Virus record (IMG/VR): IMGVR_UViG_3300042324_001056 | Location: 1-50,706 of that record | DNA length: 50,706 nt | Origin: a virus | Reading direction: 5' to 3' (one strand) | Shown here: piece by piece, positions 13,388 to 44,430 of the stretch | Numbering within the stretch: the first letter of the stretch is position 1 | How the letters are laid out: each line of letters begins with the position of its first letter | Notes under the pieces: model-generated | Databases searched by the model: none | What the model was told of the DNA's origin: nothing | The model's input: the letters and a program-made list of their open reading frames with translations, nothing else | Made by a program: the position numbers and the translations under genes

Positions 13388-13437
13388 AATATTATCTATA
13401 GTAGTTTATACTCTATAATTTAAAGTTGTTTCATAAA

Positions 13438-13459
13438 AAAAGCCACCGAAGTGGCTTTT
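13438..13459 (-). terminator. UUCG-capped intrinsic terminator of the Ro-adjacent RNA region
   Basis: AAAAGCCAC-TTCG-GTGGCTTTT on the minus strand with a T run, ending the non-coding transcript that begins near 13787. Confidence 0.85.
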
Positions 13460-13722
13460 AATGTTTAACGGGATCGCTGTTCGTGATTTTCTTCTCGGCA
13501 GAATAACCCTGTTTAACGTCTTCGGCTTTGATTTTCGCGAGAGTCTACTATCTTCAACTTCATCCTACTAGTCACCTATTGGGGTGGTTTGACGTGTAAC
13601 CTATTTTCCAGTGTTAGTCTTCACCTTGTCTAGCCGCTTCAAAACTAAGGACGAATCATTAGCTCCACGTTTATCCCAGACTCTGTCATAGTTTGTGTGT
13701 ACTTTTTGCTGTATCGATCCAC
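13460..13722 (-). ncRNA. Candidate Y-type RNA B (long form)
   Basis: The closing helix GGATCG (13715-13720) pairs with CGATCC (13471-13476). One base after the 5' strand is TACAGCAA (13706-13713), as in four other RNAs here. The roughly 235 nt inside hold local hairpins such as CACC-CCAATA-GGTG, GGTT...AACC and TTCT-GCCG-AGAA, but no tRNA-like arm that I can see. It lies directly downstream of the Ro60-like gene. The only open frame here, 60 codons with a TTG start, spans units A and B and shows no protein features. Family unknown. Confidence 0.55.
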
Positions 13723-13786
13723 CTGGTTCCTTGTTTTCCGTTTCTATAAGTATATGGTTGTATAAGTTGCTGTACGGAACCAATTT
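13720..13786 (-). ncRNA. Candidate Y-type RNA A (short form)
   Basis: TGGTTCC (13776-13782) pairs with GGAACCA (13724-13730). One base later comes TACAGCAA (13767-13774). A competing helix TTCCGT/ACGGAA uses part of the same 5' strand, so two folds are possible. The 5' strand begins only a few bases after the promoter box at 13788-13798, so the RNA's 5' end probably is the transcription start. Position next to the Ro60-like gene is typical of Y RNAs. Confidence 0.55.
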
Positions 13787-13798: not shown

Positions 13799-15229
13799 TT
13801 AAACGATTGGTGAGTACCTTTCGCTCAAGATTGTTTTATCCATTATTTGTTGTGGAGATTCAATATCTCCTCCAAGTAAACTTTTCATAATTGCTGGTGA
13901 GAATCCGCTTACCAATGCAGTGCCTTGAGTATCAAAGGCTACTGGTACACCACCATTTCTAGATTGAATGTTCCAATAAACAATCTGAGGCATTGTGTAA
14001 CCTGCTGCATCGTACATCTTCTCGATCATTTGTTGTGCAGTTGGATTCCATTTTCCATCTTCGTTTCTCCAACCTCCACCTCCAGTTGCCGCATTAAATT
14101 CCATATCTGATAAGATAAGAATCTTATTTGGCATTTCGTCTTGAGACAAATTATGCTTAGTGGCTTGATCTAAGATCAATTTAAAAGTCGCCTCGAGATT
14201 TGTTGACATTCCCCAATTTGAAGATGACATCTGTGCGTAGCGATCTTTTAGTGAACCACTTAATACTTGTAGTTGTGGAGTGTCTGAGAATGTGATGAAT
14301 GCATCTTTGAAAGGACCTTCATTTCGTTCAGAAATATAAAGACCTAATGAAACAGCAACATCCATACAAGTTACTGATTTGCTACCTCCTGCTGGGCAAG
14401 ACATAGAACCTGATGTATCCACAACTGGTAAAATCATATCGTTTGCTCCTTCTAAATAATTAGGAAGGGCTTTCCATTGTTCGTTAGCAACTGTTGCATT
14501 ACCTTGTTTTAATGACTTGGTAATGTCATAAGGGTAAACTGCACCTGCATTGATTTTAGCTTCACCTTTTACTAATGATTGGATATAAGCTGAATAACTT
14601 TCGTATGCATTTTTACCAAAGGCTTTTTGGTATCTGGCTGAGGCCACTGATGGTAATTTACCAAATTCAATGGTGTCCCATTCTTTAGCACACATTTTAG
14701 TCTCAACAACACTAGTCAATCCAACTAAAGATTTACGATATTGTTTTGGTGACATGCCTGTAAATTTACGTAACTTTTCAGCAATTGGACCTTTACGTGG
14801 CATCCATTTAGCACATAAACCATTTTCAGCTACGATAGCATTTGAAATTAAGGTAAATGCTTCTTTTTCAAGACGTGTTCCTGCAAGAACTAATAAATCA
14901 TCCCATCGGCCGTATTCAGCAATCAAATGCAAGTTTGGTTTTAAAGTCAAATCATGGTCTTCTGCTAAGTAAATGATAATGTCTTTGAAAACTTGACGTT
15001 CTCCAGCACCACCTCTGACATCACGTGCCCAGAATAAAAGTTTCATCGCACGTTTAGGATCTTCATTAAAGGCTTTCGAGAATGTAGCGATCAAACGTTG
15101 TTTGTCTTGGCCTCTCATGGCACCGATGTTAAAGAATAAATCAACACAAGCATTCAATGAACTTGAGTTGGTTGCCATACCATTTTCGGTTAGCATGTCT
15201 TCTTGTCTTAAAGCGTCTACGAATTTCAT
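13799..15229 (-). CDS. Ro60-like RNA-binding protein (TROVE/DUF2828 with vWA domain)
   Basis: 476 aa. The N-terminal helical-repeat part carries RDVRGGAGERQVF (69-81) and EYGRWDDLL (105-113), characteristic of the TROVE-related DUF2828 family. The C-terminal von Willebrand A-like domain starts PVVDTSGSM with the MIDAS DxSxS at 271-275, a MIDAS-type Thr at about 343, and ILSDMEF (372-378). Ro60 proteins are rings that hold the ends of misfolded RNAs and bind Y RNAs; in Deinococcus a Y RNA tethers Ro to polynucleotide phosphorylase. Two candidate Y RNAs follow the gene and three more lie at 41.6-42.2 kb. Inference: phage-made RNP for RNA quality control or RNA/tRNA remodelling. Confidence 0.85.
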   Translation of the reverse strand: MKFVDALRQEDMLTENGMATNSSSLNACVDLFFNIGAMRGQDKQRLIATFSKAFNEDPKRAMKLLFWARDVRGGAGERQVFKDIIIYLAEDHDLTLKPNLHLIAEYGRWDDLLVLAGTRLEKEAFTLISNAIVAENGLCAKWMPRKGPIAEKLRKFTGMSPKQYRKSLVGLTSVVETKMCAKEWDTIEFGKLPSVASARYQKAFGKNAYESYSAYIQSLVKGEAKINAGAVYPYDITKSLKQGNATVANEQWKALPNYLEGANDMILPVVDTSGSMSCPAGGSKSVTCMDVAVSLGLYISERNEGPFKDAFITFSDTPQLQVLSGSLKDRYAQMSSSNWGMSTNLEATFKLILDQATKHNLSQDEMPNKILILSDMEFNAATGGGGWRNEDGKWNPTAQQMIEKMYDAAGYTMPQIVYWNIQSRNGGVPVAFDTQGTALVSGFSPAIMKSLLGGDIESPQQIMDKTILSERYSPIV

Positions 15230-15257: not shown

Positions 15258-16379
15258 TTAGTTTTCGATTGTTTCAAACTTATTTAAAAAAGGTTTACTA
15301 TATTCTGGCTTAACCATTTTCCAGGCCTTTTCGCTCACATCTTTGCCATTTGCAATTCCAAAAATGATACCATGATTAACATCGCTCAAAGCTAAAACTT
15401 GTTCAGCAAATTCTTTTTGAGTCAACATACCATCTCTTAAGATCGAAGAGCAAACTGCTAAATGATAGTGCATTACTTGTTTAAAATCTGCCATGATTTT
15501 AGTTTGAGTTGCATGAACCCAATCATAAAACTCATCTGGTACATCATTAAGCATTTGCTCTGGCAATTTACCAAATTTCATTAAGTTTTCCCAAATATCG
15601 TATGAAGAAACATTAGTTAAGATTCGGTGCAAAGTACAGTAATCTTCAAACTTGATTTTAACCCTTAAGTTAGAAGGAAAGAAACGTAAGACATAACCTT
15701 CTTCGTTGGCTTTGTTCAAAGCTTTTAAAGTTGAATATAATTCTGGACCCAAATCAAAGACTTGAGTAGTTTTAACAATATCAGACTTTTTAACACCTGA
15801 CATTTTAAAATAGGCCTGTGCTGTAGTCCAATGTAATTCATCGTCTCCACCTTCTTTCCAATTCCAAGATCGATTAAGGGCCGCACCTAAAAATGTAATC
15901 TTTTCTTTGCCATAATCAACCACAATTCTATTTTCTGGGTAAATAATCTCACATAAATAGGCAACAGAAGGTTCAAAAGCATCTAAGATGTATTTGGCCT
16001 TTAAGATCTCTAAGCCTCGAATGGCCTGATCTGATGTAAAAGATCCACGAGTTGATAAGATCCACTCATTCTTATAGTTAAATAAAATACCCAAGGATCC
16101 ATCCATTTTTTCTTGAACATAAACATAGTCAGAATTTGACCATGGAATCATAGTCGCTGGCAATTCTTCGTAGTTAAAAAACTTTGGAAATGGCTTAATG
16201 ATAATATTACCAGTTTCATCATCGGTAATAACTCCACGACAAGACAAAGTAACATCGTCCCAATACTTCTCATACTGTGTGGATTGAGAGTAATTGTAGA
16301 TTGACAATGGCAAAGTAGGGTGTGACTGACGAATCAACCAACCTGCTTCTACATACTTATCTAATATTGCTTTGTTCAT
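15258..16379 (-). CDS. RNA ligase, T4 Rnl1 family
   Basis: 373 aa, the usual Rnl1 size. Nucleotidyl motif I is EKMDGSLG with Lys91 as the AMP acceptor; motif III region YLCEIIYPE (Glu144); motif IV EGYVLRF (227-233); motif V VKIKF (240-244). The N-terminal FPKFFNYEE segment is typical of T4 RnlA. Rnl1 joins 5'-phosphate to 3'-OH RNA ends and, in T4, repairs tRNA anticodon-loop breaks together with Pnkp. Here it lies 28 nt upstream of the Ro60-like gene, so the two may be co-expressed. Confidence 0.88.
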   Translation of the reverse strand: MNKAILDKYVEAGWLIRQSHPTLPLSIYNYSQSTQYEKYWDDVTLSCRGVITDDETGNIIIKPFPKFFNYEELPATMIPWSNSDYVYVQEKMDGSLGILFNYKNEWILSTRGSFTSDQAIRGLEILKAKYILDAFEPSVAYLCEIIYPENRIVVDYGKEKITFLGAALNRSWNWKEGGDDELHWTTAQAYFKMSGVKKSDIVKTTQVFDLGPELYSTLKALNKANEEGYVLRFFPSNLRVKIKFEDYCTLHRILTNVSSYDIWENLMKFGKLPEQMLNDVPDEFYDWVHATQTKIMADFKQVMHYHLAVCSSILRDGMLTQKEFAEQVLALSDVNHGIIFGIANGKDVSEKAWKMVKPEYSKPFLNKFETIEN

Positions 16380-19545: not shown

Positions 19546-20169
19546 TTATTGCGCTTTTTTTTCGCAAAAAGATCTAAAAGTTGTTAACAATTCATTACGC
19601 GTTGGTTGCCAATACTCTTTTAATTCATCCCAAGTCCATTCTCTTGAACTTAACTTGGTCCAAATAAAGTTGCTTGATGTATAGTCAATTGCTTGGTTCT
19701 CAGCAAATTCGATCCCAAACTTGGCAATTCTCAATGAATGAAATAAACTTTTGATGCCAATGTAGTAGTCGCCTTGTTCCAACTTCTTTTTGGCCTTGAC
19801 CCATGAATTAGAAACAGTATGCGATATGTTGTGTCTGAAACTTTCAGGCTTGTAAACAAATGTGCAGTCAAATGGTTTGATCTGAGCCCAGTCAGGTGCA
19901 AATAAGCATTCAATTGCTCTAATGTGATTGTCTTTGACGTCCTTTCTAAATTTATCAGGAACGATAATATGAATATTGAATTTGTCTGATTTGTATTCTA
20001 CTTCAGGTGATGGTGCATTGGCAATTAAGATAATATCCCAATCTGACTCTTCATTAGCAGTACCATAGACTCTAGAGCCAAACACATAGCAGCCATGCAC
20101 CATTTTTGGGTGCTTATTAACTACTTGACAAATCTCAGCTAAAGTTGGTATTACAAATCCTTCTTCCAT
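19546..20169 (-). CDS. Predicted nucleotidyltransferase (RlaP-like)
   Basis: 207 aa. The polymerase-beta-type signature GSRVYGTANEESDWDI (GS..YG.....SDxDxxx) sits near residues 31-46, and a helical C-terminal domain follows. This pattern is typical of the uncharacterised RlaP family, predicted to add nucleotides to an RNA or other acceptor and sometimes linked with RNA ligases. The substrate is not known. It overlaps the small gene upstream by 19 nt. Confidence 0.75.
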   Translation of the reverse strand: MEEGFVIPTLAEICQVVNKHPKMVHGCYVFGSRVYGTANEESDWDIILIANAPSPEVEYKSDKFNIHIIVPDKFRKDVKDNHIRAIECLFAPDWAQIKPFDCTFVYKPESFRHNISHTVSNSWVKAKKKLEQGDYYIGIKSLFHSLRIAKFGIEFAENQAIDYTSSNFIWTKLSSREWTWDELKEYWQPTRNELLTTFRSFCEKKAQ

Positions 20170-26731: not shown

Positions 26732-27145
26732 TTATAATTTAACATTAAAACGATCTTTCATTCTTTGAATTGCCTCAGCTGGTACACCATGTTGGTTTTC
26801 TCCACCATGACGGTTTTCAACAATAATGCTAAAGACCATATAGCCATATTGTTTAGCTAAATCAAAATAAGGTTGCATTTCCCATTCTTGTGTGAATGTG
26901 TTTGAAACTGCAATTTCTCGATAGAATTGGTCATTCACTAATGAATCTTTCATATATGTTTCAACCAAAGTTCGACAAGATTCATGAGCCTCTTTTAATT
27001 TAGAGCCATCAAACTTATATTCTCCGTCGACCATAAAATACTTATCAGCTTCACAAACTAAAAAGTCTGAGCCAACTAAGTTTAATGCAAATGTTGATTT
27101 GCCAGATCCTGGTATTCCGCGTACGATGTATAATTTTTTAGTCAT
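26732..27145 (-). CDS. P-loop kinase, polynucleotide-kinase-like (AAA_33)
   Basis: 137 aa. Walker A GIPGSGKS at residues 10-17, EADKYF as the phosphate-acceptor/Mg segment, and VSNTFTQEWEMQPYFDLAKQYGY with ENRHGGENQHGVPAE, the lid region typical of N4BP2/T4 Pnk-related kinases. T4 Pnkp phosphorylates 5'-OH RNA/DNA ends. Here there is no fused phosphatase; the HAD enzyme at 5001-5591 could supply that step. Fits with the two RNA ligases. Overlaps the gene at 27138 by eight bases. Confidence 0.75.
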   Translation of the reverse strand: MTKKLYIVRGIPGSGKSTFALNLVGSDFLVCEADKYFMVDGEYKFDGSKLKEAHESCRTLVETYMKDSLVNDQFYREIAVSNTFTQEWEMQPYFDLAKQYGYMVFSIIVENRHGGENQHGVPAEAIQRMKDRFNVKL

Positions 27146-30737: not shown

Positions 30738-30748
30738 AGTTATATATC
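30738..30748 (-). promoter_or_regulatory. GATATATAA-type promoter-like box
   Basis: Minus strand GATATATAACT overlapping the stop of the RNA ligase gene (30747), 18 nt before the tagged peptidase ATG. Confidence 0.5.
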
Positions 30749-31880
30749 ACTTTTCGTTCATTAAAAACTTATTTGAAATAGCTTTAAAACTAATCTTACG
30801 ATCTAAACTTCTAATAACCACACCTTCTCTATCAAAATTAGGATTTAAAACTGATTTTGCATCAGCATAAGCTAATAACTCATCAATGGTCTCTGGCAAC
30901 TTCATTGTCAAATTTGTCAACATTGGTACAGTTTCTAATTTTAATCCATGTTGCATAGTTGCCAAGAACATTGGTAAGCCATAGTACTCTTGTGTATCAA
31001 TGTCGAATACGTTAAAGAATCTAACAGTTTGTCCTTTGATTTTGTAAGGATTGCCTTGGATACCCTCACCAATCAACTCACCTTGAATAGAGATATTTCG
31101 ACCGTAAGCTTCTAGCTTTTCTTTAAGTCCTAATTCTTGAGCTACTTTCCAGAATGAATTTTGTTGACGTGGTCTTTCGATACCATCATCACACATCACC
31201 ATTCCTGCAACAAACTCTTCAGGTTCTGCTAGTTCTAAGTTTCTTGAACATACACCAAAGACACCATCTTTATAGTAATAAGTAGCTGAAGATCCATCTA
31301 ACTTTTCAGTCACATAGAAGTCTAGATCTTGTTCTTTCCACTGTGCATATTCTTTAACCAAGTTTTGAACTCGTTCTTCGTCGGTTTTGCGAATAAATGA
31401 TGGAAAGTAACCTTTGACTTTACCAGACAATTCAGCTGGAATTGGTGGTTCATATTTCTCTACACCTAACAATTCAGTTACATCTACACCCTCTTCGATT
31501 ACTAAAGCGTTATCATAAGGTCCTAATTGTAATTGATCTCCGTGTGGTTGTTGAGAGATTCCAATAATGTAATCACCATTTAGGATTCCAATAGGTACCA
31601 CTAAACCTTGAGAAACTTGGCCTCTTAGTCTAATAGTCTTTAAACGAAATCCTTCTTGGTCACCCATCTTTTTAAATGAGCTTTTACGTAAGAATTCAAA
31701 CTCTTCTCTGATCGGTAAGAATGAATCAATTTCAAAGTAAACACAAAGTTCTCCTACTTTAAATTCATTTTTCTTAACAACAACATCCCAGTTGTTGATT
31801 CTTGCTACTTCGATAGCATCAGCACCCTCAATTGGTCTAATGCTAGCGATTCTCTGTACGGATGCTAGTTTTCTTTCCAT
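30747..31880 (-). CDS. RNA ligase of the Rnl5 (Deinococcus DraRnl-like) type
   Basis: 377 aa. An N-terminal OB-like module (RKLASVQRIASIRPIEGADAI..., residues 1-140) precedes the adenylyltransferase domain: motif I TEKLDGSSATYY with Lys193, SIQGELIGEG (III), REGVVIRS (IV) and ISFKAISNKFL (V). An N-terminal OB module is the mark of DraRnl, which seals 3'-OH/5'-phosphate nicks in duplexes with the 3' strand RNA. It is a different family from the Rnl1 at 15258, so this phage carries two RNA ligases. Confidence 0.85.
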   Translation of the reverse strand: MERKLASVQRIASIRPIEGADAIEVARINNWDVVVKKNEFKVGELCVYFEIDSFLPIREEFEFLRKSSFKKMGDQEGFRLKTIRLRGQVSQGLVVPIGILNGDYIIGISQQPHGDQLQLGPYDNALVIEEGVDVTELLGVEKYEPPIPAELSGKVKGYFPSFIRKTDEERVQNLVKEYAQWKEQDLDFYVTEKLDGSSATYYYKDGVFGVCSRNLELAEPEEFVAGMVMCDDGIERPRQQNSFWKVAQELGLKEKLEAYGRNISIQGELIGEGIQGNPYKIKGQTVRFFNVFDIDTQEYYGLPMFLATMQHGLKLETVPMLTNLTMKLPETIDELLAYADAKSVLNPNFDREGVVIRSLDRKISFKAISNKFLMNEK

Positions 31881-32469: not shown

Positions 32470-33213
32470 TTATTGTTTCTTTTCAAAAGTTGGTTTCAAC
32501 CACATGCCTCGATCAAAGACCAAGTCTAAAAAGCCTGGGATTGATTGAGCATCCACTAAATGTAGTAATTTGATAGTTGCAACAGTATCATGTTTTAGCA
32601 TCTTGAAAATCTCTTCGCGAATTCTTTCAGCACTAACTGTCGTTCTTAGTTTTTCCAAGATTTCAGGTTGCATCATTGCGATCCAAATATCATCATGAAT
32701 GCTAAATCCTTTGGTGATTTTAAACCTCAAAGCCCTCATAATTCTCAATGGATCATCCATCATAGTCATTTTTGCAGGCAATGGTGTTCTAAGCAAACCT
32801 CGTTTTAGGTCCTCTTGGCCACCAAAAAGATCAATAATGTTTCCATCAATGTCTTCAGCTAAGGCATTGACTGTAAAATCTCGACGAAGTAAATCATCGG
32901 CCAGAGTTCCAAGTTCTAGAATTGGCTGACGAGTTCCTTCTAAGTAACCAACTTCTTTACGAGCCATTACAAAGTCAGCCACTAGGCCGCTAAATTGGTG
33001 ATCTTTAGGAAACTTAGCCCTAATAGTAAAACAGTCTGGAGTGCTCAAGAACACTTCAAAACCTTCTTGTTTAAGATGATCTTCCATTGTTGCGAAACCT
33101 TCTTGGACTGATCCGGATAAGTCATCCAATACAAATGTAAAGTCTATGTCTTTGGATTCTAGTCCAAGAAACTTGTCCCTTACACATCCTCCTACTTTAA
33201 ATATCTGTGGCAT
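32470..33213 (-). CDS. cca: CCA-adding/poly(A)-polymerase-type nucleotidyltransferase
   Basis: 247 aa from the ATG at 33213. Head domain signatures: VGGCVRDKFLG (GG..RD), KDIDFTF (Asp22/Asp24 metal ligands), RRDFTVNALA and DPLRIMRALRFK, the order found in class II CCA enzymes. It lacks the long C-terminal body/tail of bacterial enzymes (usually near 400 aa), like some phage members. At least three tRNAs here (Thr, Leu, Asn) lack an encoded CCA, giving it a job. A longer reading runs through the terminator-promoter and is rejected. Confidence 0.8.
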   Translation of the reverse strand: MPQIFKVGGCVRDKFLGLESKDIDFTFVLDDLSGSVQEGFATMEDHLKQEGFEVFLSTPDCFTIRAKFPKDHQFSGLVADFVMARKEVGYLEGTRQPILELGTLADDLLRRDFTVNALAEDIDGNIIDLFGGQEDLKRGLLRTPLPAKMTMMDDPLRIMRALRFKITKGFSIHDDIWIAMMQPEILEKLRTTVSAERIREEIFKMLKHDTVATIKLLHLVDAQSIPGFLDLVFDRGMWLKPTFEKKQ

Positions 33214-33220
33214 CTTCTTT

Positions 33221-33260
33221 CTTTTAATTATACTGTAAATATACACAAAACATTTGACAT
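33221..33260 (-). promoter_or_regulatory. Class A promoter
   Basis: TGTCAAATGTTTTGTGTATA then TTTACAGTATAATTAAAAG on the minus strand, seven bases before the CCA-enzyme ATG. Confidence 0.7.
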
Positions 33261-33266
33261 AAAAAA

Positions 33267-33294
33267 ATCCGGATGAAAATAAATTCACCCGGAT
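33267..33294 (-). terminator. Terminator hairpin of the CCGG/CCGG type
   Basis: Same stem and loop as the copy at 8838, 24 kb away, followed by the T run and promoter. Confidence 0.8.
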
Positions 33295-41440: not shown

Positions 41441-41516
41441 TGGAGCGAAAGACGGGATTCGAACCCGCGACCTCCAGTTTGGTAAACTGGAGCTCTACCA
41501 GCTGAGCTACTTTCGC
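41441..41516 (-). tRNA. tRNA-Gly (anticodon ACC), CCA encoded
   Basis: Acceptor GCGAAAG/CTTTCGC, D arm GCTC-GAGC with GG, anticodon stem CCAGT/ACTGG with loop TTACCAA, T arm GCGGG-TTCGAAT-CCCGT, discriminator T and encoded CCA. U73 fits glycine. Anticodon ACC (A34) for GGU is unusual, since bacteria normally use GCC. Confidence 0.85.
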
Positions 41517-41604
41517 AATTTGGGTTGGATCAGAGGCCTTCTGCCAACCGAGACCTCGTCGTTGAACTTCCGAAAAAATCAGAGCGTACCGAGACACTAT
41601 AAAA
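41517..41604 (-). other. Structured spacer between Y-type RNA and tRNA-Gly
   Basis: No gene. GGTTGG-CAGA pairs with TCTG-AT-CCAACC near 41524-41550, and GTCTCGGT occurs twice (minus strand) in an imperfect direct repeat. Could be a processing region or a further small RNA. Confidence 0.4.
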
Positions 41605-41734
41605 AATTCAGGATGGCTTTTTGTACGTGCTCTACCAGCTGAGCTAACTGCCTCGAAAGACAGTATGGGATTCGAACCCATGACCACGAGGTTAATAGCC
41701 TAGTTTTTACTTTTTGCAGTAACCATCCTTTAAG
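41605..41734 (-). ncRNA. tRNA-mimicking Y-type RNA 1 (YrlA-like, permuted tRNA fold)
   Basis: Ends close by GGATGG (41723-41728) with CCATCC (41611-41616), then T and TACTGCAA (41714-41721). Inside is a tRNA in permuted order: T arm ATGGG-TTCGAAT-CCCAT (41665-41681), acceptor strand ACTGTCT, loop TTCG (41654-41657), acceptor strand AGGCAGT, TA, then D arm GCTC-AGCTGGTA-GAGC (41629-41644). The seven-base-pair acceptor is fully paired and sealed by a UUCG tetraloop, so no 3' CCA end can exist. A local hairpin CTAGG-CTATTAA-CCTCG sits at the anticodon-arm place. This is the topology reported for bacterial Y RNAs (YrlA), which bind Ro60. Confidence 0.8.
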
Positions 41735-41736
41735 TT

Positions 41737-41904
41737 TTATGCTGTTTTCTTAGAAGCTACTGACCAAATAAAACCTACAAGTGCAGTAATAATACCTGCG
41801 CCTTCAGCTAGCATTGAATCATCCATATAACCTCTTGTTACTAATACACCACCTAATACAGTTAAAGTGTGACGTAAAAATCCTAAAAATTGATCTTTGT
41901 TCAT
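41737..41904 (-). CDS. Small holin-like membrane protein
   Basis: 55 aa: FLRHTLTVLGGVLVTRGYMD then MLAEGAGIITALVGFIWSVA and a basic end SKKTA. Two hydrophobic segments with a short polar turn and this exact pattern (LRHxLTxxGG...G.....GxxxxLxGxxWS) are typical of a common small phage holin family. It would release the endolysin 34227-35141. Lies between Y-type RNA 1 and tRNA-Thr, apparently on the same RNA transcript. Confidence 0.75.
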   Translation of the reverse strand: MNKDQFLGFLRHTLTVLGGVLVTRGYMDDSMLAEGAGIITALVGFIWSVASKKTA

Positions 41905-41929
41905 AATAATTAAATTGTTAAATTGTTAG

Positions 41930-42003
41930 AGCCTCTTGACGGATTCGAACCGCCGACCCCCTCATTACAAGTGAGGTGCTCTGGCCAACTGAGCTAAAGA
42001 GGC
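41930..42003 (-). tRNA. tRNA-Thr (anticodon TGT)
   Basis: Acceptor GCCTCTT/AAGAGGC, D arm GCTC-GAGC with GG, anticodon arm CCTCA-CTTGTAA-TGAGG, T arm with TTCGAAT. CCA is not encoded, so it depends on a CCA enzyme. Confidence 0.9.
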
Positions 42004-42009
42004 AAAATA

Positions 42010-42071
42010 ACGGGATACGATTTGGTTTCAGTTGTTGTAGAATTGAAAGTTATTTGCTGTATGTATCCCAA
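42010..42071 (-). ncRNA. Candidate Y-type RNA C (short form)
   Basis: GGGATAC (42063-42069) pairs with GTATCCC (42012-42018); one base after the 5' strand is TACAGCAA (42054-42061). An inner TTTCA/TGAAA stem is possible. No tRNA-like arms. It separates Y-type RNA 2 from tRNA-Thr by a few bases each side. Confidence 0.5.
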
Positions 42072-42074
42072 TAA

Positions 42075-42205
42075 GGTCAGGTTTCTGTTTTTGCTTACCA
42101 GCGCGTTTACCAATTTCGCCACAATTATCTTTCGATAAGAGGTAGGACTCGAACCTACAATGTACCGGTTCCAGATGCTGTTTTATTGCTGTAAGAAACC
42201 TTTAA
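42075..42205 (-). ncRNA. tRNA-mimicking Y-type RNA 2 (YrlA-like, permuted class II tRNA fold)
   Basis: Ends close by AGGTTTCT (42194-42201) with AGAAACCT (42079-42086), followed by TACAGCAA (42186-42193). Inside, in permuted order: ACCGG (42065+100..., i.e. 42165-42169), T arm GTAGG-TTCGAGT-CCTAC (42142-42158), acceptor strand CTCTTATC, loop GAAA (42130-42133), GATAATTG, TG, a leucine-type D arm GCG-AAATTGGTAAAC-GCG, then CTGGT (42097-42101) pairing with ACCGG as the anticodon-type stem. The acceptor has two mismatches but is capped by a GNRA tetraloop. Shares flanking TTAAAGG...TTAC-GCAA and CAAAAA...CCTGA with RNA 1, so the two are paralogues. Confidence 0.8.
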
Positions 42206-43153: not shown

Positions 43154-43336
43154 TCATTTGATAGTTCTGATCGTATAAACATGACCTGAATCGCTATTTT
43201 CTTGTAGCATTTGTCTGGTATCTTCAGCTTTTTCTAAATCGTCAAATTCTAATATTTCAGAGTGACCATCTAGAATTAGGACTGGAAGTGTGCCAGTTTC
43301 AGTTGTGATGTTTTTTACAATAATGTAGGTTTCCAT
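43154..43336 (-). CDS. 60-aa hypothetical protein
   Basis: Small ferredoxin-like alternation: TYIIVKNITT strand, PVLILDGHSEILEF, helix ADTRQMLQENS, strand HVYTIRTI. Not recognised. One-base overlap with the aminopeptidase gene. Confidence 0.55.
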   Translation of the reverse strand: METYIIVKNITTETGTLPVLILDGHSEILEFDDLEKAEDTRQMLQENSDSGHVYTIRTIK

Positions 43337-44430
43337 TAGATTCTAGGATTTTTTATAGATTCGATTTCGTAAACCGATAAGTTTAATAGTGTATTGACAA
43401 ATAGTATAATAGCGTTTTCAACATCATCTTTGTGTGCCATTTCAACAGTCGTGTGCATGTATTTCAATGGTGTTGCTAAAATTGCAGTTGGCGTATTTTC
43501 TAAAAAGAAAGAAACTGTATCATTTCCATAAGATCCAACTGTTAATTGAATTGGTATCTCAAGTTCATGCGCTGTGTCGCGATAAAGTTTGATCAGTTTG
43601 CGGTGATTTTGTGCTGTAAACTCAACACAAGGTCCTTTTCCACCTTCGATGTCACCATCTTTGGCTTTATTCATCATTGGGTGATTTGTGTTGTGACAAA
43701 CATCATGTACTAATGCAATATCAGCTTTGATAGTTTGAGCAATCAAACGAGCTCCAAATAAGCCAACCTCTTCCTGGACTGAGTTAACTACATATAAGTC
43801 AAATGGTAAACGATGATTCATTTTTGAAATGCGTAAAAGAGCTTCAGCGATGATATAACCACCAATCTTATTATCCAATGAACGACCAACATAATAGTCA
43901 CCTAACTCACTAAACTGATCGTCAAAAGTAACCATACAGCCAACTTCAACTCCAAGTTCTTTTACTTTGTCAGCTGAATCAACTCCAAAATCCAACCATA
44001 ATTCATGCTGATCTGGTCCCATTTCGGTGTATTTTTCTCTAACATGAACTGCTGGAGAACCAAAGAATGCTTTAACTTTTTGACCTTTATGAGTATGTAC
44101 GATCACAGATTTTGAAGCTGCGATCATATTATCAGATCCACCAGCTCTTTTAACTCGAACGTAACCGTCTTTTTCGATTTGAGTAATGATCCATGCAATT
44201 TCATCACAATGTGCTTCTAAAACTACTCGATATGGCTCAGCGTATCTGTGCGATAAATCTTGGTCAGCTGTGCTGCCTTTTAAGATGCCATAAGCAGTAC
44301 CATAAGCATCGACTTTTACTTGATCGGCAAATGGTCTAATATAATCTGCCCAAATTTTCTGTCCTTCGGTCTCTTGACCAACTGGTGAAAATGCGTTTAG
44401 ATAATTGTAAAGAAATTCTTTTGAGTCCAT
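43336..44430 (-). CDS. M42-family metallo-aminopeptidase
   Basis: 364 aa, full length for the family. Metal and catalytic residues all present: LEAHCDEIA (His74, Asp76), SLDNKIGG (Asp186, bridging), QEEVG (Glu220/Glu221), VHDVCHN (Asp243) and YMHTTVE (His326). Members form dodecameric TET particles that trim peptides. Very unusual in a phage; may recycle peptides for amino acids or trim phage/host proteins during infection. No signal or tag, so cytoplasmic. Confidence 0.88.
   Translation of the reverse strand: MDSKEFLYNYLNAFSPVGQETEGQKIWADYIRPFADQVKVDAYGTAYGILKGSTADQDLSHRYAEPYRVVLEAHCDEIAWIITQIEKDGYVRVKRAGGSDNMIAASKSVIVHTHKGQKVKAFFGSPAVHVREKYTEMGPDQHELWLDFGVDSADKVKELGVEVGCMVTFDDQFSELGDYYVGRSLDNKIGGYIIAEALLRISKMNHRLPFDLYVVNSVQEEVGLFGARLIAQTIKADIALVHDVCHNTNHPMMNKAKDGDIEGGKGPCVEFTAQNHRKLIKLYRDTAHELEIPIQLTVGSYGNDTVSFFLENTPTAILATPLKYMHTTVEMAHKDDVENAIILFVNTLLNLSVYEIESIKNPRI

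Follow-up and report, generated by a model that had tools for sequence, protein, structure and literature searches.

Permuted, sealed tRNA-like RNAs in a phage tRNA array and a Ro60-like DUF2828 protein as their probable partner

The two permuted tRNA-like RNAs described here, RNA1 and RNA2, are probably Y-RNA-like non-coding RNAs of a Ro60-type ribonucleoprotein, in which they would present a sealed tRNA mimic together with a protein of the DUF2828 family. Both are encoded on the minus strand of a 50,706-bp IMG/VR virus record (IMGVR_UViG_3300042324_001056), a genome fragment that is called the window below. The proposal builds on the structure and family of the RNAs, their association with DUF2828 genes, the predicted Ro60-like fold of the protein and the position of the RNAs in a tRNA array. 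RNA1 and RNA2 belong to a family with more than 100 phage members that share one plan: an outer helix, the motif UACAGCAA just inside it, and a tRNA with its ends in the anticodon stem. A preliminary description had placed two permuted tRNA-like RNAs, with UUCG and GAAA as their closing loops, at 41605-41734 and 42075-42205; both are present at these places on the minus strand, with bounds that differ by 1–2 bases.

From 5' to 3', both RNAs run through the 5' strand of the outer helix, the motif, the 3' half of the tRNA, the closed acceptor hairpin, the 5' half of the tRNA with the D arm, an A-rich stretch and the 3' strand of the outer helix. RNA1 (41604-41733, minus strand, as are all parts of both RNAs) carries a complete class I tRNA permuted at anticodon-stem positions 28/29. 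Its outer helix AGGAUGGUU/AGCCAUCCU spans 41610-41729 (5' strand 41729-41721, 3' strand 41618-41610), and the motif UACUGCAA, the RNA1 counterpart of UACAGCAA, lies at 41721-41714. The core (41629-41681) consists of the T arm (41681-41665), the 3' acceptor strand ACUGUCU (41664-41658), the closing loop UUCG (41657-41654), the 5' acceptor strand AGGCAGU (41653-41647) and the D arm (41644-41629). The anticodon arm (41626-41701) is split: AGG-CUAUUAA-CCUCG (41701-41687) precedes the variable loop, while A26 and the CG of positions 27-28 (41627-41626) come after the D arm, and the tRNA ends sit within the 5' strand of the anticodon stem. Once joined, CGAGG-CUAUUAA-CCUCG forms a stem of five base pairs without a mismatch, and its 7-base loop has U33, A37 and the anticodon AUU. 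With this full canonical arm, RNA1 at least is a whole tRNA and not T, acceptor and D modules alone. In RNA2 (42073-42205), the outer helix AGGUUUCU/AGAAACCU (42201-42194 / 42086-42079) and the motif UACAGCAA (42193-42186) enclose a leucine-type permuted tRNA. Its core (42103-42158) is formed by the T arm (42158-42142), the acceptor strands CUCUUAUC (42141-42134) and GAUAAUUG (42129-42122) with two mismatches in the stem, the closing loop GAAA (42133-42130) and a leucine-type D arm (42119-42103). CUGGU after the D arm and AUCUGGA-ACCGG upstream could form a 5-bp arm with a 7-nt loop, which is less certain than the arm of RNA1. The earlier account of T arm, acceptor and D arm modules, and of a class I and a leucine-type body with the same permutation and closed acceptor end, holds; it had overlooked the outer domain (helix and motif) of each RNA and the anticodon arm that takes RNA1 beyond these modules. 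ARAGORN called neither RNA in the window. Five ordinary tRNAs were found there by ARAGORN and Rfam; RNA1 scores only marginally, with 31 bits from the Rfam tRNA model.

A covariance model, R2, was trained on 30 other RNAs and on no sequence from the window; it recovers RNA1 with 109.2 bits (E=1.2e-20) and RNA2 with 60.8 bits (E=1.7e-10). A pattern search of IMG/VR for UACAGCAA with T and D arms returned at least 120 stretches, most of which are permuted tRNA-like RNAs; this motif set and the training set of a further model, R1, were partly selected. Among 35 relatives aligned over 29 pairs, 94.1% of cells were paired, compared with 62.9% in shuffled and about 40% in slid controls, and changes on both sides were seen in all eight pairs of the outer helix. 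Because pairing had guided the choice of some of these relatives, controls with swapped partners weigh more. An outer helix of at least 7 bp was present in 111 of 119 RNAs, against 30–38 of 119 when partners were swapped, and the anticodon arm was completed across the two ends in 66 of 120 motif relatives, against about 22 of 120 when ends were swapped among RNAs. The full canonical arm, split at 28/29 or 29/30, occurs in 59 of 132 motif relatives. Several such RNAs are found per phage (at most seven at E<=1e-4), and the D arms of one phage's RNAs match different tRNA types. The compensatory changes among relatives bear out the earlier argument that these RNAs are not products of decay. The exchange of tRNA parts, which had been suggested from the two RNAs, was seen between orthologous loci. 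In L259 and L268, with flanks 98–100% identical, the entire acceptor hairpin has been swapped for another that still pairs, along with two bases of the T loop, and the rest of the RNA is unchanged; in L266 and L333, the T arm, acceptor and D loop have been replaced. RNA2 itself is kept in three related records (L126, L201 and L209). Nucleotide searches with the RNAs for named relatives returned just ordinary tRNAs and weak matches, apart from an RNA without annotation that lies next to the TROVE gene in Caulobacter phage CcrColossus.

Permuted tRNA genes that yield working tRNAs are an unlikely alternative; the outer domain would be removed, the 28/29 ends joined and the acceptor loop opened by RNase P and 3' processing. 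The preliminary description had named ordinary tRNAs put together from the two halves as evidence against a mimic; none were seen, yet the joined halves read as tRNA, and this explanation was therefore kept. ARAGORN calls the joined halves as tRNAs in 128 of 132 cases, which is weak evidence, since the best join was picked by its pairing and the count is thereby partly built in. The anticodon arms are canonical, with U33 and a purine at 37, in RNA1 clearly and in RNA2 more weakly, and the window encodes a pair of RNA ligases besides a PolyA_pol-type nucleotidyltransferase. The earlier statement that no CCA end is possible applies to RNA1 and RNA2, whose UUCG and GAAA loops contain no CCA, but not across the family: CCA stands at the right place of the loop in 26 of 132 motif relatives (control trinucleotides, 4 and 10), which speaks for some tie to tRNA ends. 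Against working tRNAs, the closing loop is only 3–5 nt long in 84 of 132, and the ordinary tRNA sets of carrier phages are nearly complete and often include the same anticodon (for example Gly-GCC, Phe-GAA, Trp-CCA, Lys-UUU). For the same reason, the idea that the RNAs fill gaps in the ordinary set was rejected. Anticodons with A34 other than ACG occur in 9 of 59 RNAs compared with 67 of 3544 ordinary tRNAs (p=2.7e-6), and anticodons for Ser, Leu or Tyr sit on bodies with a short variable loop in 9 of 59, a count with an imperfect linear control. Whole acceptor stems have been exchanged between orthologs, and just two bases separate RNA2 from its relative in the 95%-identical L126, each of them in what would be the anticodon (CUG versus AUA, region 42186-42180). 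A decoding role for RNA1 and RNA2 is thus unlikely. Permuted, two-piece tmRNA likewise comes from a permuted gene of a tRNA-like RNA, but its loop is excised and its two pieces bear an end that is charged, whereas the window RNAs have a short closed loop. A match to Rfam permuted tmRNA (RF04321, 64.3 bits) was recorded in L110 (6477-6635, minus strand), a phage record in which TROVE and an RNA of the permuted tRNA-like type are encoded as well. The permuted tRNA genes of algae and Thermofilum also place the 3' half before the 5' half, and their intervening sequence can be very short, but they rejoin through a BHB motif into working tRNAs (PMC3978253); the BHB splicing-endonuclease motif was not recognised by eye in the aligned junctions of the present family. 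A review of permuted tRNA genes lists none from bacteria or phages (PMC3978253).

The proposed protein partner is a product of 476 amino acids encoded at 13799-15229 on the minus strand, with matches to PHROG_850 (E=2.4e-157) and to Pfam DUF2828 (1.9e-35) and the vWA family DUF7788 (6.6e-54). AlphaFold, run with 17 homologs, predicted a helical N-terminal half followed by a vWA domain (pLDDT 81), the helical-repeat ring and vWA order of Ro60/TROVE proteins. Compared with the PDB, the model gave E<0.001 only for the TROVE entry 9kop, for 9l5y, the Ro60 of Thermus phage phiLo, and for 2nvo, Deinococcus radiodurans Rsr. The structural match to TROVE/Ro60/Rsr is full-length but modest (TM ~0.5, 18% identity), and in a profile search of PDB sequences TROVE ranked first at E=0.015. 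Pfam TROVE has no match in the window. To conclude from this that the phage lacks a Ro-like protein would be wrong, since Pfam TROVE misses the DUF2828 type, which the window encodes. Directly 3' of the gene lies a UACAGCAA stem-loop, E4 (13718-13786, minus strand), detected by R2 at E=0.016 and seen in sequence and fold. A possible long member, E5 (13471-13720, minus strand; GGAUCG AUACAGCAA ... CGAUCC CGUU), was read from the sequence; the 366-nt region after the gene folds with an energy no better than that of shuffles, so that only motif and helix suggest E5. A hairpin resembling an intrinsic terminator (13434-13458, minus strand), read from the sequence and formed in the fold, appears to close the unit. 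An Rnl1-type RNA ligase (15258-16379, minus strand; RNA_lig_T4_1, E=1.3e-16) is encoded 29 bp upstream; an RNA ligase as a constant neighbour of DUF2828 was rejected, as the arrangement was seen only in the window and a few other records. A second RNA ligase (30747-31880), an AAA_33 kinase-like protein (26732-27145), a PolyA_pol-type nucleotidyltransferase (32470-33288) and a Polbeta nucleotidyltransferase (19546-20169) make up an RNA end-processing set elsewhere in the window.

Association of the RNAs with DUF2828 was assessed at loci that had been fetched by RNA pattern alone, disregarding proteins. DUF2828/PHROG_850 was found in 34 of 46 motif-set records and in 6 of 41 control phage records, and five of these six control records carry strong R1 matches (E 1e-12 to 1e-16). 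Some of the motif-set negatives are added comparison records or short fragments (W01, W02, W04, G001-G003 and G030); DUF2828 was also absent from two motif records of more than 100 kb (G034 and G035). In 45 of 82 cases, no more than 300 bp separate the DUF2828 gene from the nearest ACAGCAA element, 44 times on the same strand; for other long ORFs the share is 7.8%. Within the window, the tRNA-bearing RNAs are 26 kb away from the Ro60-like gene. UACAGCAA occurs in 54 of 68 RNAs of DUF2828 loci, an inflated figure because most of these loci were found by the motif. A scan of bacterial and archaeal genomes by RNA pattern gave DUF2828 in 18 of 64 loci; among loci with an R2 match it was present in 16 of 26, and among the others in 3 of 38. 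These DUF2828 loci include Treponema, Akkermansia, Roseburia and a Methanobrevibacter assembly, for which contamination of metagenome assemblies is possible. In Mycobacterium phage Tourach (L320), the RNA lies 100 bp after the gene of an annotated Ro-like RNA-binding protein, in a stretch without any annotated RNA feature. The mycobacteriophage proteins of this name (Tourach gp54, LeBron gp53) are of the same family, PHROG_850, as the window protein, and overproduction of LeBron gp53 is toxic (PMC13148394). TROVE was rejected as the partner of the window RNAs, since it was found neither in the window, itself a fragment, nor in more than a few motif phages. Pfam TROVE matched in 2 of 39 IMG/VR motif-set records, the RNAs of one of which (G030) are without the motif, and DUF2828 was absent from all nine TROVE-positive records tested.

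YrlA has a basal stem formed from its two ends, a T arm, an acceptor hairpin closed by a short loop and a D arm, and its gene is sometimes near those of a Ro-type protein and RNA repair enzymes (PMC8394870, PMC7790460). RNA1 and RNA2 share this layout with YrlA (RF02553, which goes with Rsr/Ro60), including the tRNA-like module of T arm, closed acceptor hairpin and D arm, as the preliminary description had recognised. Unlike YrlA, the window family has UACAGCAA and another outer helix, DUF2828 in place of TROVE, many members with a complete anticodon arm, and leucine-type and other D arms. Further marks of YrlA are dihydrouridine and pseudouridine, binding to Rsr and a tether to PNPase. Rfam YrlA gave RNA1 41.6 bits (E=1.3e-7), below the gathering score of 69, and did not list RNA2. 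The RNAs work like YrlA in our reading but are not filed as YrlA, because they miss the Rfam cut-off and differ in stem type and probable protein partner. In some phages (CcrColossus, L244 and L246), Y-type RNAs next to a TROVE gene show the same permutation, several of them with full anticodon arms such as CUUGUAA. Unlike the two window RNAs, TROVE-linked RNAs are without UACAGCAA (0 of 16), and many share, as judged by eye, a UACUUC-like element at the same place. The permuted tRNA-like RNAs beside the TROVE-like gene of CcrColossus are unannotated (L401 1501-1588; JX100810.1 108831-109451). A role as competitive nuclease inhibitor has been proposed for YrlA (PMC7790460), which lends some weight to the quite improbable alternative that the RNAs act unbound, outside any Ro-like particle, as decoys for anticodon nucleases or other defences that attack tRNAs; complete anticodon arms, changeable anticodons and fast exchange of parts point the same way. 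A free decoy would, however, have no use for DUF2828, which the RNA genes track, or for a conserved outer domain that also exists without a tRNA, mostly beside tRNA genes. Decoy activity also fits the Ro60-type particle and may be its function.

Ordinary tRNA genes lie near the two RNAs. RNA3 (42012-42069, minus strand), an outer domain without tRNA (GGGAUAC-AU-ACAGCAA ... GUAUCCC), lies between RNA2 and a tRNA-Thr(UGU) that follows just after it (41929-42003, minus strand); its counterpart in the 95%-identical L126 retains helix and motif but has a diverged loop. RNA1 is followed by a tRNA-Gly(ACC) (41441-41516, minus strand), with a possible further structured RNA (GGUUGG ... CCAACC) in between at 41517-41604 on the same strand. 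Of 204 ACAGCAA stem-loops, 96 are without and 108 with a tRNA, and for 93 an ordinary tRNA is no more than 30 nt away; all counted neighbours share the strand of the stem-loop, typically 1–5 nt upstream or 6–10 nt downstream. RNA1 (stretch 41604-41737 in this comparison) is missing from L126, L201 and L209 (94–98% identical), which are otherwise collinear across the site. In these three records, translation judged by eye revealed a GIY-YIG-like ORF elsewhere between the same genes. That the elements are array spacers or processing signals with tRNA pieces caught by recombination would account for the constant strand and spacing of a few bases and for the absence of RNA1 from close relatives without other change, but it is quite improbable, since compensatory changes preserve the tRNA arms, acceptor hairpin and outer helix and members stand alone beside DUF2828 genes outside arrays. 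The closest phage relatives of an M42 peptidase in the window (43336-44430) are in uncultured phages of 462–735 kb, and the window may therefore be part of a huge phage. A ROOL RNA (323 bits) was recorded in L084 (3148-3722), which also carries DUF2828 and UACAGCAA-type RNAs.

In the Ro60-type particle that we favour, the RNAs would be transcribed and bound by the DUF2828 protein, which has the Ro60 layout of helical half and vWA domain and would hold the outer helix and the unpaired UACAGCAA, the presumed binding site. The opposite end of the RNA would present the tRNA. With its ends moved into the anticodon stem and its acceptor end closed by a short loop, the tRNA could not be charged but would stay visible to tRNA-binding enzymes. 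In Deinococcus, Rsr and a Y RNA tether a nuclease. The phage particle may similarly tether or divert nucleases, modification or repair enzymes, or tRNA-cutting defence enzymes. It is possible, though at present tentative, that DUF2828 and the UACAGCAA RNAs, with their whole sealed tRNAs, form a second Ro/Y particle apart from TROVE/YrlA, with a range that takes in huge phages, bacteria and one or more archaeal assemblies, and that it supplies phages with exchangeable decoys against tRNA-cutting defences. No report of the UACAGCAA/DUF2828 RNA family was found in the literature searched; key papers on YrlA and RNA repair lay beyond its scope, and an earlier description is possible.

Ro60 and Y RNAs occur from bacteria to humans, and it is a standing question why some Y RNAs imitate tRNAs. 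The present family offers a large set of natural variants in which the tRNA is whole and its parts can be exchanged, and whose probable partner protein is from a different family. Since some of these variants are in phages that grow on Mycobacterium smegmatis, the set makes the question of tRNA copying directly testable. If the proposal is true, it would give DUF2828 a function, account for many of the gaps left without annotation in phage tRNA arrays, and tie tRNA mimicry to the conflict between phages and tRNA-cutting defences.
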